Source: Ideonella paludis
GTDB taxonomy: Bacteria; Pseudomonadota; Gammaproteobacteria; Burkholderiales; Burkholderiaceae_C
DNA: 64,000 nt
NCBI RefSeq assembly: GCF_018069865.1
Contig: NZ_JAGQDG010000004.1
Span: 496,001 to 560,000, forward strand
Direction of reading: 5' to 3'
In this document: positions 19,432-23,099 of the stretch, piece by piece
Numbering within the stretch: position 1 is the first letter of the stretch
How the letters are laid out: each line of letters opens with the position of its first letter
The notes under the pieces: generated by a model
What the model was told of the DNA's origin: nothing
Database searches by the model: none
Seen by the model: only the letters and a program-made list of their open reading frames with translations
Program-made: the position numbers and the translations under genes

Positions 19432-20067
19432 TCAGCACGCCTCCACAAACCCCGGGCCCTTGAACACCCGGATCGCATTGCCGCGTTCCACCCCGTGGTG
19501 CTGGATCCAGCGCTGCTGACGCGCGGCTCGATCTGCGGCACTGGCCCTGTCGGCCAGCTTGTGGCTCAACAAGGCGCGGGCCAAGCGTTTGTTGGCATGC
19601 TGGCTGCGCTCGGTTTGGACCTTGACGCTCAGACCCGTCGGCAGATGGGTCAGGCGCACCGCCGAATCGGTTTTGTTGACATGCTGACCGCCAGGGCCAC
19701 TCGCGCGCAAGGTTTCAAAGCACAAGTCTTGTTCACGCAGCGCCTGATCCTGGCCATCGGTGGCTTCGTCCTCAAAGGCCTCAGCGCCAATGAACCAGTT
19801 CTTCCGCTTGTGCGCTGGCCGGTAAGGGCTCACGTTGATCCATTGAAGACTGCCGCTCCACTGCGCTGCCAGCGTGCGCGCCTGCGCGCCTTCCAGCGCC
19901 ACGAGCACCGAGCGAAGGTTGCCCTCCATTGCGCTGGCTACTTGCTCTAGCAGCTCGGTGCGAACGCCTTGTTGATGCGCCTCTTCAAGCAAGCGAGCCA
20001 GTGCTTTGCGAACGCCCAAGCAGCATTCCTCTGGGCCTGTGTTGGCCGTCAGTTGCAGCATGATCAT
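19432..20067 (-). CDS. prfH: Peptide chain release factor homolog PrfH
   Basis: A 211-residue class-I release factor relative that keeps the peptidyl-tRNA hydrolysis domain but lacks the full codon-recognition domain. The catalytic GGQ is at residues 126-128 within [16 protein letters not shown]. The N-terminus ([18 protein letters not shown]) is the PrfH-specific segment. I selected the ATG that overlaps the rtcB stop as ATGA, with GGGGAG eight bases upstream; a GTG nine bases earlier is possible. The family is almost always found beside rtcB and, from published work on E. coli RtcB2-PrfH, rescues ribosomes whose 16S rRNA is cut at the decoding centre so that RtcB can reseal it. Confidence 0.92.
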
Positions 20068-21212
20068 TCGCAGCACTCCCCGCGGGTCTTGTAGGTCAGC
20101 ACGGGCTTAAGCCGTGCGAGCAGCTCAATCAGGCCCGCCCCCACCAAGGCCTGCACCACGCTGTCGATGCCTTTGTAGGCCTGCGGTGCTTCCTCATAGA
20201 TGAGTTGGCGGTCGTTGCAGATCACGCGGCTGCCCAGCGCCGTCCGGCCCATTTGGCTGGGGGTCGTCAGCTTGAACAAGCGGTCTTTGCAGGCCGAGCG
20301 AATCCACTTGCGACCTGCCCCATGCGCCAACGACAACAGGGTGTCGTGGCACAGGCGACGTGGCCTGACCAAGTAGCTGTAGTCCCCGCGGGAGCCAGGG
20401 ATCATCACTGGCCCTTGGTCGGAAGGCGTCGCACCTTTGCGATGCAACCAACCCTGCTGTCCGCCCACACTCGCAGCGGCCACAAAGTTGTGGTGCACAT
20501 CGAGCACGCACTCGCCTTGTGCACGCACATTGTTCAGCAGCCGCTGTGCGACCAAGCCACGGTTGCAGCGCGCAAACAGTAGGGCGGCATCATGCTCTCG
20601 GAGATAGGCCACGGCCGCGTCTTCCCCGGCCTTCAGGCCCCGATGACCGAAGGCCTCGACATGCCGGCGCAGGATGCGCTCGCCCAAACCGCGCGAGCCA
20701 CTGTGCACCAGCAAGAGCAGATGGCGCGGGCTCAGACCGAGATCGGACACCGCCTGTTCAACATAGACCGTGTCCACCTGCTGAAACTCAGCAAAGTGAT
20801 TGCCGCCGCCGATGGTTCCCAGTGATGCCAGGTGCTCGCCAGGCGCCAGACCCTGCGCCTGCGCGGCTTGATCGCGCAGTTCAAGATCCTCCAGCGGGCC
20901 ATCAATATTGCCAACGCGTTTGTCCAACTTGTCGAGGCGCACGGCGCTGGCCAACAGGTCGGTTTGCCACAGCGCCATGCCGCAGCCAATATCGTTCCCC
21001 ACCAGCGTGGGGTAGATGATGTCCTTTGAGAAAAAGGCCGCACCCACAGGGTTGCCGCGACCAGGATGAAGATCCGGCATGCCCGCCACGCGTTGCATGC
21101 CCTCTAATTGCGCGGTGGTCAGCAGCTGTGCAATCGCTGCATCTTCCATCCACGTCGAGTCCGTCGCGACCACGCAGGCGCGGTCCGACAAGACCTTGAC
21201 AAAATTGCCCAT
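20064..21212 (-). CDS. rtcB: RNA ligase RtcB (PrfH-associated, RtcB2-type)
   Basis: A 382-residue RNA ligase joining 2',3'-cyclic-phosphate (or 3'-phosphate) and 5'-OH ends with GTP and Mn2+. Metal-binding Cys77 lies in NDIGCGM, with [17 protein letters not shown] and HNFVA following. The guanylylated histidine is His297 in AHGAGRKW. It is shorter than canonical RtcB (about 400 residues), as expected for PrfH-linked copies. The ATG has only a weak GGA upstream. It is the first long gene of the rtcB-prfH pair, with no rtcA or rtcR nearby, so regulation must differ from the sigma-54-driven rtcBA operon. Confidence 0.93.
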
Positions 21213-21264
21213 AAAAATCCAGATTCAAAGTGATGAAACCGGACTGGGACAGACGCGCGCAAGC

Positions 21265-21315
21265 CACCGCACCGCGCAAAGCGGTGCTCAGTGGGGCGCG
21301 AAAAGAAGTGCGGTG
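21265..21315 (-). promoter_or_regulatory. Mutually exclusive RNA helices in the rtcB leader
   Basis: On the leftward RNA, CACCGCAC (21315-21308) can pair perfectly with GTGCGGTG (21272-21265). Alternatively GCACCGC (21287-21281) pairs with GCGGTGC (21275-21269) around a TTTGC loop. The two share bases 21269-21272, so they cannot form together. The first arm begins 8 bases after the stop of the 19-codon leader ORF and would be covered by a ribosome paused there. This is the arrangement of an attenuator, but there is no U tract and the rtcB start is about 50 bases further on. Confidence 0.45.
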
Positions 21316-21322
21316 AGGCTGC

Positions 21323-21382
21323 TCAGTGCAACAACTCAGCCACCGTCGACCCAGCCCACAGGGAGGTCGTGTTCTTTTGCAT
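21323..21382 (-). CDS. 19-codon leader ORF upstream of rtcB
   Basis: ATG to TGA encoding MQKNTTSLWAGSTVAELLH. It is preceded by AAGGAG with ideal spacing (ACAAT before ATG), by far the best ribosome binding site in this region. It ends 110 bases before the rtcB ATG and is out of frame with rtcB. No hydrophobic toxin-like stretch is present and I recognise no family. It may be a leader peptide whose translation state controls rtcB-prfH, or a small protein in its own right. The rest of 21213-21587 holds only the folded leader, a weak promoter candidate and the tctA terminator. Confidence 0.55.
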   Translation of the reverse strand: MQKNTTSLWAGSTVAELLH

Positions 21383-21465
21383 ATTGTTCTCCTTGTGAAG
21401 TCGATGGATGGGGGTGCGCCGCCCTTGCGGGGGCCGTGCAAGCCGTGGCGCGCGAAGAGGGCCGC

Positions 21466-21495
21466 ACTGTAGGGGCAAGTGGGTGTTCAGGTCCA
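21466..21495 (-). promoter_or_regulatory. Weak candidate promoter for the rtcB-prfH leader
   Basis: TACAGT (21466-21471, leftward strand) with TGGACC (21490-21495) 18 bases upstream gives a sub-optimal sigma-70 match. It lies between the tctA terminator and the leader ORF, giving an untranslated stretch of about 75 bases before that ORF. There is no stronger match in the gap, but the call is weak. Confidence 0.3.
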
Positions 21496-21538
21496 GCCTG
21501 GCCTGTGCGGTGCGACGTGTTTATGCGACAGCACCATG

Positions 21539-21565
21539 AAAAAGGGCTGACCAAAGTCAGCCCTT
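21539..21565 (-). terminator. Intrinsic terminator of tctBA
   Basis: A 10-bp perfect stem (AAGGGCTGAC at 21542-21551 with GTCAGCCCTT at 21556-21565, loop of four) is followed on the leftward transcript by five U. It starts 23 bases after the tctA stop and separates tctBA from the rtcB leader. Confidence 0.9.
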
Positions 21566-21587
21566 GCGAGGTGTCAGGCGCCAGGCG

Positions 21588-23099
21588 TCAATCGTCTTGG
21601 AACGCCTCTTCCCGCTTGGAGCGGATCGAGGGCAGCAGCACCACCACGATCATGGCCAGGGACGCCAGCAGCAAGCCTGCGGACAGTGGCCGGGTGGCAA
21701 AGGTACTCCAGTCACCACGCGAGAGCAGCAGAGCGCGGCGCAGGTTTTCTTCCATCATGGGGCCCAAGATGAAGCCCAGCAGCAATGGCGCAGGCTCGCA
21801 GCTCAGCTTGTAGAAGACATAGCCCACAAAGCCGAACAGCACCGCCATGTAGATGTCGAAGTTGTTGTTGTTCAGCGTGTACAGGCCGATGCAGCAGAAG
21901 GTGAGGATGGCCGGGTAGAGCACGCGGTAAGGCACGGTCAGCAGCTTGATCCAGATGCCGATCAAGGGCAGGTTCAAGATCACCAGCAGCAGGTTGCCGA
22001 TCCACATCGAGGCGATCAGGCCCCAGAACAGCTCGGGGTTGGCCGTCATCACTTGAGGACCGGGCTGGATGCCCTTGATGGTCATCGCGCCCACCATCAG
22101 CGCCATCACCGGGTTGGGCGGAATGCCCAAGGTCAGCATGGGGATGAAGCTGGTTTGTGCGCCGGCATTGTTGGCCGACTCGGGGCCCGCCACGCCGCGG
22201 ATATTGCCCTGGCCGAAAGGCACCTCGTTGGCACCCATGCGCATCTTCTTCTCGACCGTGTAGGCCGCGAAGGACGCCAGCAAGGCACCGCCGCCGGGCA
22301 GCACGCCCAGGATGGAGCCCAGGGCCGTGCCCCGCAGCACGGCCGGGAAGCCCTCTTTGAAGTCTTGGGCCGTGGGCCACAAGCCCTTCACGTCTTTGGT
22401 GAAGACCTCGCGGTGTTCGGCGGGACGGCCGAGGTTGGCAATGATTTCGCCAAAGCCGAACACGCCCATGGCGATGGTCACAAAGCCGATGCCGTCGGTC
22501 AGCTCAGGGATGTCAAAGCTGTAGCGTGGCACACCCGAAATAACGTCGGTGTTGATCTGCCCCAGCAGCAGGCCCAGCACAATCATGCCGATGGCCTTGA
22601 CCAAGGAGCCTGAGGCCAGCACCACGGCGCCGATCAAGCCCAGGGTCATCAGGCTGAAGTATTCGGCCGGGCCGAACTTGAAGGCCAGCTCGGTCAGCGG
22701 CGGCGCGAAGGCCGCGATGATCAAAGTGCCCACGCAGCCAGCGAAGAAGGAGCCCAAACCGGCCGCCGCGAGCGCAGCACCAGCGCGGCCGCGACGGGCC
22801 ATGGCATAGCCGTCGATGGCGGTGACCACCGAGCTGGATTCACCGGGGACGTTGATCAAAATGGCGGTGGTCGATCCACCATACTGAGCGCCGTAGTAAA
22901 TGCCGGCCAGCATGATCAGCGCAGGCGTCGCGTCCAGGGCATAGATGGACGGCAGCAGCATGGCGATGGTGGCCACCGGCCCCAAGCCCGGCAGCACACC
23001 GATCAGGGTGCCCAGAATGGCACCGCCCAAAGCGTAGAGAAGGTTGGTGACGGTGAAGGCCGTCTGCAGGCCCAGGCCCAGATTGGATAAGAGATCCAT
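21588..23099 (-). CDS. tctA: Tripartite tricarboxylate transporter large permease TctA
   Basis: A 503-residue inner-membrane permease with about twelve helices, the large subunit of a tripartite tricarboxylate transporter. Signature stretches are GVLPGLGPVATIAMLLP near the N-terminus, YGGSTTAILINVPGE, and the matching second-half GLLPGGGALLASFAAY and GIPPNPVMALMVGAM-type loops. It starts 13 bases after tctB. The periplasmic binding protein TctC that normally defines the substrate is not adjacent, so one of the often numerous Bug-type proteins elsewhere in the genome must serve it. Its transcript ends at a clear terminator. Confidence 0.93.
   Translation of the reverse strand: MDLLSNLGLGLQTAFTVTNLLYALGGAILGTLIGVLPGLGPVATIAMLLPSIYALDATPALIMLAGIYYGAQYGGSTTAILINVPGESSSVVTAIDGYAMARRGRAGAALAAAGLGSFFAGCVGTLIIAAFAPPLTELAFKFGPAEYFSLMTLGLIGAVVLASGSLVKAIGMIVLGLLLGQINTDVISGVPRYSFDIPELTDGIGFVTIAMGVFGFGEIIANLGRPAEHREVFTKDVKGLWPTAQDFKEGFPAVLRGTALGSILGVLPGGGALLASFAAYTVEKKMRMGANEVPFGQGNIRGVAGPESANNAGAQTSFIPMLTLGIPPNPVMALMVGAMTIKGIQPGPQVMTANPELFWGLIASMWIGNLLLVILNLPLIGIWIKLLTVPYRVLYPAILTFCCIGLYTLNNNNFDIYMAVLFGFVGYVFYKLSCEPAPLLLGFILGPMMEENLRRALLLSRGDWSTFATRPLSAGLLLASLAMIVVVLLPSIRSKREEAFQDD

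Follow-up and report, generated by a model that had tools for sequence, protein, structure and literature searches.

In the trp and his attenuators, the position of a ribosome on a leader ORF picks between helices; in the rtcBA operon, control by RtcR and sigma-54 involves a protein regulator. A leader in front of an RtcB-like gene is described in Pseudomonas aeruginosa, where PA5471.1 precedes armZ (RtcB-like) and PA5470 (prfH) and is presented, in the available excerpts of three publications, as a translation-sensing attenuator (PMC12057347, PMC3516279, PMC13041342), two of which tie ribosome disruption to armZ (PMC3516279, PMC13041342). According to the excerpts of one of these, an amber codon at codon 3 of PA5471.1 raises ArmZ, activation in a cca mutant is due in part to immature tRNAs for codons 3 and 4, and complete translation of the leader is thought to permit a terminator, i.e. 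to turn expression off (PMC13041342). A 2025 review, as far as its available text goes, states that control of an anti-repressor by a leader peptide seems to be found in MexXY alone, and that confirmation of the PA5471.1 attenuation mechanism is still needed (PMC12057347).

In the present study, a window of 64,000 nucleotides from Ideonella paludis was analysed, in which rtcB and then prfH form a leftward operon (Table 1). An earlier note on this DNA, made from the letters alone, was aware of no description of translation-sensing control for an operon of this kind, which overlooks the published PA5471.1 leader of armZ-prfH (PMC12057347, PMC3516279, PMC13041342, in the parts available). Both leaders are short ORFs led by a Shine-Dalgarno (SD) sequence, before an RtcB-family gene and then prfH, and the window leader is a divergent member of the kind already known from P. 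aeruginosa rather than a kind of its own. The P. aeruginosa PA7 leader (MIQFSTLCRLRLA) has 13 codons, with Gln3-Phe4, matching PA5471.1 as given in the excerpts of two reports (PMC3516279, PMC13041342). The window leader has 19 codons, peptide and RNA letters differ, and the distance from leader start to gene is 254 bases in PA7 but 170 in the window. The PA5471.1 leader is described as acting by transcription attenuation that feeds an efflux anti-repressor, whereas a helix over the rtcB ribosome-binding site (RBS) is proposed for the window, with no efflux link implied.

As in the trp and his attenuators, ribosome position in the leader ORF would choose between helices in the window, but the leader has no single-codon run, no canonical terminator was flagged, and the output is rRNA repair rather than biosynthesis. 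Regulation of rtcBA through RtcR and sigma-54 likewise concerns expression of an RtcB ligase, although it uses a protein regulator (PMC9650030) and is not known to involve a leader ORF switch. What is new here is how general the leader is, that its RNA and not its peptide is conserved, and that a helix is predicted over the rtcB RBS, the evidence for a switch being computational. Among the literature matches listed, in the portions available, no description of a general rtcB-prfH leader was found, which is not proof of absence.

Table 1. Positions in the window of the operon, the leader ORF and the proposed RNA elements.
Feature	Position	Strand	Basis
prfH (peptide chain release factor H, 214 aa)	19432-20076	-	NCBIfam TIGR03072, above cut-off
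rtcB (PrfH-associated RtcB, 382 aa)	20064-21212	-	NCBIfam NF007153 / TIGR03073, above cut-offs
P4 3' arm TTGAATCTGGA, over weak rtcB RBS GGA (21218-21220)	21218-21228	-	folding, alignment
P4 5' arm TCCGGTTTCAT; overlaps P1-extended 3' arm	21233-21243	-	folding, alignment
P1-extended 3' arm CTGTCCCAGTCCG (core 21244-21252)	21240-21252	-	alignment, pairing probability
P3 part: hairpin GCACCGC-TTTGC-GCGGTGC, named in the earlier note	21269-21287	-	probability 0.99
CACCGCAC, alternative arm of the earlier note	21308-21315	-	probability 0.00; not conserved
P2 hairpin around leader stop, GGTGGCTG...CAGCCTCACC, then T-rich stretch	21312-21344	-	fold
Leader ORF, ATG, 19 codons, MQKNTTSLWAGSTVAELLH	21323-21382	-	translation; length kept in relatives
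P1 core 5' arm, codons 10-13	21346-21354	-	
P1-extended 5' arm TGGGCTGGGTCGA, leader codons 9-13	21346-21358	-	alignment, pairing probability
P0 3' arm CTCCCTGTG, leader codons 6-9	21357-21365	-	folding, alignment
Leader Shine-Dalgarno AAGGAG	21389-21394	-	sequence; SD energy
P0 5' arm CACAAGGAG, includes leader SD	21389-21397	-	folding, alignment
Possible promoter TGGACC (21490-21495), 18 bases, TACAGT (21466-21471)	21466-21495	-	positional conservation

The leader ORF and its conservation

The genome from which the window is taken (4.8 Mb) contains one rtcB match, and a prfH match is present at all 111 rtcB loci. The leftward 19-codon ORF with its AAGGAG site, and the near-absence of a binding site at rtcB itself, were noticed earlier and are both verified here, the anti-SD binding energy being -8.5 kcal/mol for the leader and -3.1 kcal/mol for rtcB. 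The leader has the stronger SD of the two in 98 out of 98 loci. In the window, the leader stops 110 bases before rtcB.

Conservation was scored with fixed criteria (ATG, 11-25 codons, an SD 5-15 bases before, and at most 360 bases from rtcB) at 107 loci, each having at least 250 bases upstream and some being near-duplicates. An ORF of this kind, followed by the RtcB-family gene and then prfH, is present in the window and at 104 of the 107 loci; the chance rate in first-order-resampled upstream sequences is 0.012 per locus (~1.2 %). In one of the three that fail (L050), a 19-codon ORF with a weaker SD can be seen by eye. The other two (L130 and L131), from the phylum sample, are divergent rtcB-prfH loci without a leader by these criteria.

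The leader is found in Pseudomonas, Ralstonia, and E. coli, among others. It has a constant length of 19 codons in all 11 of the closest rtcB loci (L002-L012) and in all 16 Comamonadaceae-type sequences (14 distinct). The closest relative sharing the leader (L082) comes from genome G011, which is of the same genus as the window genome. With looser search criteria, a short ORF led by an SD was found at 68 of 69 loci (L013-L081), and 16 of 17 family loci (L094-L110) have the leader, L106 ending at a contig edge; L008 and L094, and likewise L010 and L097, are identical across the leader region. Ten genomes in a phylum sample of 398 carry rtcB of this kind, and six of eight newly fetched loci, some perhaps from species already included, have the leader. 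Comparison of the leader DNA with 299 family genomes gave four strong matches, all adjoining rtcB, and four short weak matches elsewhere (E 0.002-0.005) that were taken as chance. The alignment of relatives proposed in the earlier note as a check on the leader start and stop thus finds the ORF conserved, and, judged by sequence comparison, the leader ORF is real and old. In the closest relative of the window, Ideonella sp. MAG2 (L012, from 2491), the rtcB frame is broken soon after the start, with the leader and helices intact; either genuine decay or an error in the assembly might explain this.

It is the RNA, rather than the peptide, that is conserved across clades, because the motif TTTGC[AG], present in 63 of 98 leaders, is read in two frames: as ..LCR.. 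or similar in 55 leaders and as ..FAG../..FAV.. in eight. The remaining 35 leaders, including the window type, are without it. Leader peptides differ from clade to clade, and no run of regulatory codons, as would mark an amino-acid attenuator, was found in the leader peptide sequences. Within the window type (TSLWAGSAVAG), codons 6-14 are mostly invariant among the 14 Comamonadaceae-type leaders, which might be expected if the nascent peptide itself stalled the ribosome on a signal. However, the third positions of these codons are mostly invariant too, codons 18-19 vary freely, and, with the one RNA motif falling in two frames, no peptide is conserved throughout; arrest by the leader peptide is therefore considered highly improbable.

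Helices between the leader and rtcB

Helices P0 to P4 were derived by folding the 14 distinct Comamonadaceae-type sequences (alignment A1). In these, P0, P1, and P4 are paired in 96.0 % of 378 cells, compared with 23.5-65.6 % in slid controls. P1-extended adds four pairs, to make 12 (96.4 % of 168 cells paired), and takes bases belonging to both P0 and P4. Covariation is silent in this set because the helices hardly vary, there being one double-change pair, a number equalled by 277 out of 500 shuffles. P3 is variable, its hairpin GCACCGC/GCGGTGC pairing in 72.5 % of cells. As a whole, region 21180-21520 has a fold no more stable than its shuffles (z -1.0; 19 out of 100 shuffles equal it).

Leaders of the other types were aligned separately (A2), with 42 picked from 98 so as to drop near-duplicates and odd spacings. 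P1 is paired in 96.8 % of cells here, and five of its six pairs change on both sides. For P1, P1b, and P4 together, the covariation score is matched by none of 500 shuffles, the number of double-change pairs by 13, and the number of pair types by 432; three slid control versions equal the helices in double-change pairs (nine). P0 is paired in 90.8 % of cells, with no double changes. P1b is paired in 70-81 % of cells, one of its pairs failing in 35 of the 42 leaders, and P4 in 69 %; by eye, P4 takes different registers in some clades, for example Ralstonia.

The both-side changes in P1 bear on another explanation, that the leader merely stabilises the mRNA or delivers ribosomes to rtcB by coupling, with the helices incidental. 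A strong SD close to a gene with a weak one is also the look of translational coupling. However, the 110 bases between the leader stop and rtcB are far for re-initiation, and five of six P1 pairs change on both sides, so that little weight is given to this explanation.

A separate pairing was seen in A2, in which an upstream TTGCCC (columns 115-122) could pair with GGGCAA at the rtcB start (columns 192-198) in many gamma- and beta-proteobacterial loci. It is paired in 74.7 % of cells with three double-change pairs, fails in many of the 42 loci, and is only a lead.

The switch put forward in the earlier note was a different one, between GCACCGC/GCGGTGC (21281-21287/21269-21275) and a pairing of CACCGCAC with GTGCGGTG (21265-21272). 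The letters are present as stated: CACCGCAC starts eight bases past the leader stop and is the complement of GTGCGGTG, which overlaps the hairpin, so that the two exclude each other. Comparison with relatives, also proposed in the note, finds the pairing whole in the window only; L012 keeps seven of its eight pairs, and for four of the eight the letters are present in just two or three of 14 aligned relatives. Across ten ribosome states, its predicted probability is 0.00, against 0.99 throughout for the hairpin. These mutually exclusive helices are therefore rejected as the switch. The wider proposal, that the leader controls rtcB-prfH through alternative helices, retains the conserved ORF and SD and a modelled structure that responds to ribosome position, but loses the helices first proposed for it.

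A covariance model (R1) was built on the 42 other leaders, a set with no P. aeruginosa or Comamonadaceae-type sequences, and used to search the window plus 24 loci. In the window, the sole match up to E 10 is at exactly 21201-21404 (E 0.0074 in 182,506 bases), with the conserved SD and rtcB start contributing to the score. R1 also finds the PA7 leader (L068; E 1.7e-12), and the window and P. aeruginosa leaders thus match the same RNA architecture. Five other Comamonadaceae-type loci (L012, L009, L004, L007, and L002) are matched in the right place with E 0.0035 to 0.54, and the remnant in E. coli K-12, which is nearly a training sequence, with E 1.3e-16. In 276 class genomes, R1 has 16 places at E <=0.01 in 15 genomes, of which one adjoins rtcB (G415) and the remaining 15 score 19-25 bits. 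No Rfam family matches the window above its gathering score, the best sub-threshold match in 21150-21600 having E 0.13.

Whether such helices would act on transcription or on translation has to be considered, since PA5471.1 is modelled as a transcription attenuator. On that model, full translation of the leader would lead to a terminator before rtcB, and a stalled ribosome would prevent it. This has the published model behind it, together with drug-inducible armZ/PA5470 transcripts in P. aeruginosa, as given in the available excerpts (PMC12057347, PMC3516279, PMC13041342). In addition, by eye, a T-rich stretch follows P2 in ~12 of the 14 Comamonadaceae-type sequences, and several T follow P4 in most. 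No terminator-like site was flagged in 21150-21620 by a scan that is blind to long loops and to imperfect stems such as P2 and P4. In other clades, however, the 3' arm of P4 (e.g. GGATTGGACTATG) lacks a following T-run and still includes the RBS, and, since the 5' arm of P2 is part of the leader, a ribosome at the leader stop codon would be expected to prevent P2 rather than promote it. Attenuation of transcription is considered rather unlikely here. Control at the level of translation is favoured, because no canonical terminator is flagged in the window and because P4 covers the RBS wherever it can be traced.

Predicted effect of a ribosome on the leader

Using an equilibrium folding model, the free-energy cost of opening the rtcB RBS (-14 to +6) was calculated with a simulated ribosome covering -14 to +15 at different leader codons. 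In the main setting, 40 bases before the leader and 30 bases of rtcB were included, for 14 Comamonadaceae-type and 29 other loci. The mean opening cost in the 14 loci is 10.0 kcal/mol with no ribosome and 9.1, 8.7, 11.3, and 11.7 kcal/mol with the ribosome at codons 1, 3, 5, and 9, respectively; in the 29 others, it is 12.6 kcal/mol with none and 11.2, 11.4, 13.2, and 14.1 kcal/mol at the same codons. The mean difference between codon 9 and codon 1 is thus +2.6 kcal/mol (14 loci) and +2.9 kcal/mol (29 loci), and in 14 of 14 and 28 of 29 loci (42 out of 43) the cost at codon 9 is the higher by over 0.5 kcal/mol. For the window itself, P4 has a probability of 0.90 on a ribosome-free leader; this falls to 0.84, 0.67, and 0.39 with the ribosome at codons 1, 3, and 4, and is 0.96-0.98 from codon 5 onward. 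The model therefore predicts that P4 loosens when a ribosome is held within the first few codons and tightens when it is further along.

Control sequences largely lose this difference. Mononucleotide shuffling between the leader and rtcB shrinks the mean to 0.4 and 0.0 in the two groups, codon permutation gives 0.32 and 0.10, and random synonymous recoding gives 0.83 (up in seven of 14) and -0.35 (up in six of 29). Synonymous recoding of the leader thus abolishes most of the predicted switch, which also argues against peptide arrest.

The same 43 loci were run under five settings, combining flank lengths and RBS windows. A rise is predicted in 42, 38, 30, 35, and 39 loci and a fall in 0, 1, 4, 3, and 0, respectively, whereas the group means of recoded controls lie between -0.7 and +1.2 kcal/mol, with rises in 6-13 of the 43. 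The contrast is weaker in the first run, which covered 46 loci and took in 60 bases ahead of the leader and 45 bases of rtcB, with an RBS window of -14 to +3. Mean costs there are 9.4 without a ribosome, 8.7 with one at the start, and 10.3 with one at codon 9; the cost at codon 9 is above that at the start by more than 0.5 in 31 of the 46 loci and below it by more than 0.5 in three. With a shorter ribosome footprint (12/12), codon 9 is above codon 1 in 12 of 14 and 25 of 29 loci, and with a longer one (17/19) in 14 of 14 and 26 of 29. The footprint does move the 'on' codons: codon 5 becomes the lowest in the 14 loci with the short footprint, and codon 3 is no longer low in the 29 with the long one.

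Among 22 further loci outside the main 43, folded with the flanks and RBS window of the main setting, five of which (PA7 included) were in the first run, 17 rise, three fall (L068, L064, and L052), and two are between. Their mean difference is 2.17, against 0.72 after recoding, with recoded controls rising in 12 of the 22. In P. aeruginosa PA7 (L068), codon 9 minus codon 1 is -1.0, and the lowest state is at codon 3 (9.4, compared with 12.3 without a ribosome). The RBS is still predicted to be costly to open in the 'on' state (~5-11 kcal/mol by group and setting). As the loci are related and the tests non-independent, the p-values of the folding tests overstate the evidence.

The best explanation for these observations is probably a translation-sensing switch at the RBS of rtcB on the rtcB-prfH mRNA, working through P0, P1-extended, and P4. 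The leader would serve as a decoy ORF, its strong SD drawing ribosomes at the start of the mRNA. The leader SD can pair with codons 6-9 (P0), codons 9-13 with a block just upstream of rtcB (P1 and P1-extended), and the segment after the P1 block over the weak rtcB RBS (P4). A healthy ribosome would pass about codon 5 and melt P1, allowing P4 to close, with rtcB-prfH off. A ribosome that initiates and is then held up within the first few codons would leave P0 open, so that P1-extended could form, P4 would loosen, and rtcB-prfH would be translated. Such an early hold might be caused by a damaged decoding centre, by ribosome-targeting drugs, or by a missing charged tRNA, and the failure of elongation would then lead to production of a repair ligase and a rescue factor. 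A leader with no ribosome is predicted to be in an intermediate state. The rtcB RBS is the preferred level of control, to which Rho-linked loss of untranslated rtcB mRNA or termination at P4 may add.

That this operon carries a translation-sensing leader is well supported by the comparison of loci and moderately by the modelling. The predicted direction, on with an early stall and off with full translation, fits the P. aeruginosa genetics, early stalling on PA5471.1 being linked to expression in the excerpts available (PMC13041342). The published deletion of the PA5471.1 leader is given as 'on' in the available part of the review (PMC12057347); it is no clean test of the RBS model, because seven bases shift the frame.

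Damage to 16S rRNA may be the natural signal. The decoding centre is where colicin E3 makes its cut. The suggestion draws on this and on the protection that RtcB2-PrfH is reported, in the excerpts available, to give against colicin E3, a toxin cutting 16S rRNA (PMC9223846). It is tentatively suggested that one ancestral beta- and gamma-proteobacterial RNA switch senses ribosomes that are able to initiate but do not get beyond the first few codons, the behaviour expected if the decoding centre has been cut; damage would thus induce its own repair ligase and rescue factor, and in P. aeruginosa the induction of armZ-mexXY by antibiotics would have arisen through later co-option of this repair switch. 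If true, this would provide a concrete switch for how ribosome damage might turn on RtcB-PrfH. It would also join two literatures, as represented by the available excerpts, on the armZ/MexXY leader (PMC12057347) and on RtcB2-PrfH protection against colicin E3 (PMC9223846). No description of the induction of RtcB-PrfH by sensed ribosome damage was found in the parts of the literature examined.

The Escherichia coli leader and upstream elements

The E. coli rtcB2-prfH leader (MTNPLSMTLCRPFQD) is in the same place as that of the window, likewise with a strong SD, the P1 block, and a weak rtcB RBS, but it has 15 codons and the LCR-type motif. It is present in all five records read, K-12 among them, and annotated in none of the five. 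In K-12 MG1655 (L113, 939-986), the leader is intact before remnants of rtcB and prfH, downstream of yafO (mRNA interferase) and yafP. According to the available text of a review, ykfJ of E. coli K-12 is inducible by 4-azaleucine (PMC3516279), and a table seen in excerpt ranks the region before prfH/ykfJ low among RNA-switch candidates (PMC4448311). No expression work on the E. coli rtcB2-prfH leader was found among the literature matches listed, in the portions available. A query of rtcB2 with its upstream part matches 5,351 of 5,426 E. coli genomes, but in only 2,649 does any one match span 80 % or more of the query; of 5,407 matching places, 15 are on plasmids. A search of plasmids with window positions 21213-21500 gave nothing similar at E 0.001.

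Upstream of the leader in the window, the possible promoter (Table 1) was not flagged by a consensus promoter scan. At the candidate -10 place, TANAGT is found in 13 of the 14 Comamonadaceae-type loci and TAAAAT in the remaining one. A block, TGTCGC..AAA.GC.TCA (window 21512-21530, - strand), located ~40-60 bases before the likely -10, is largely kept in the 14 Comamonadaceae-type loci, 10 of which have the exact TGTCGC, and is possibly a binding site for a regulator.
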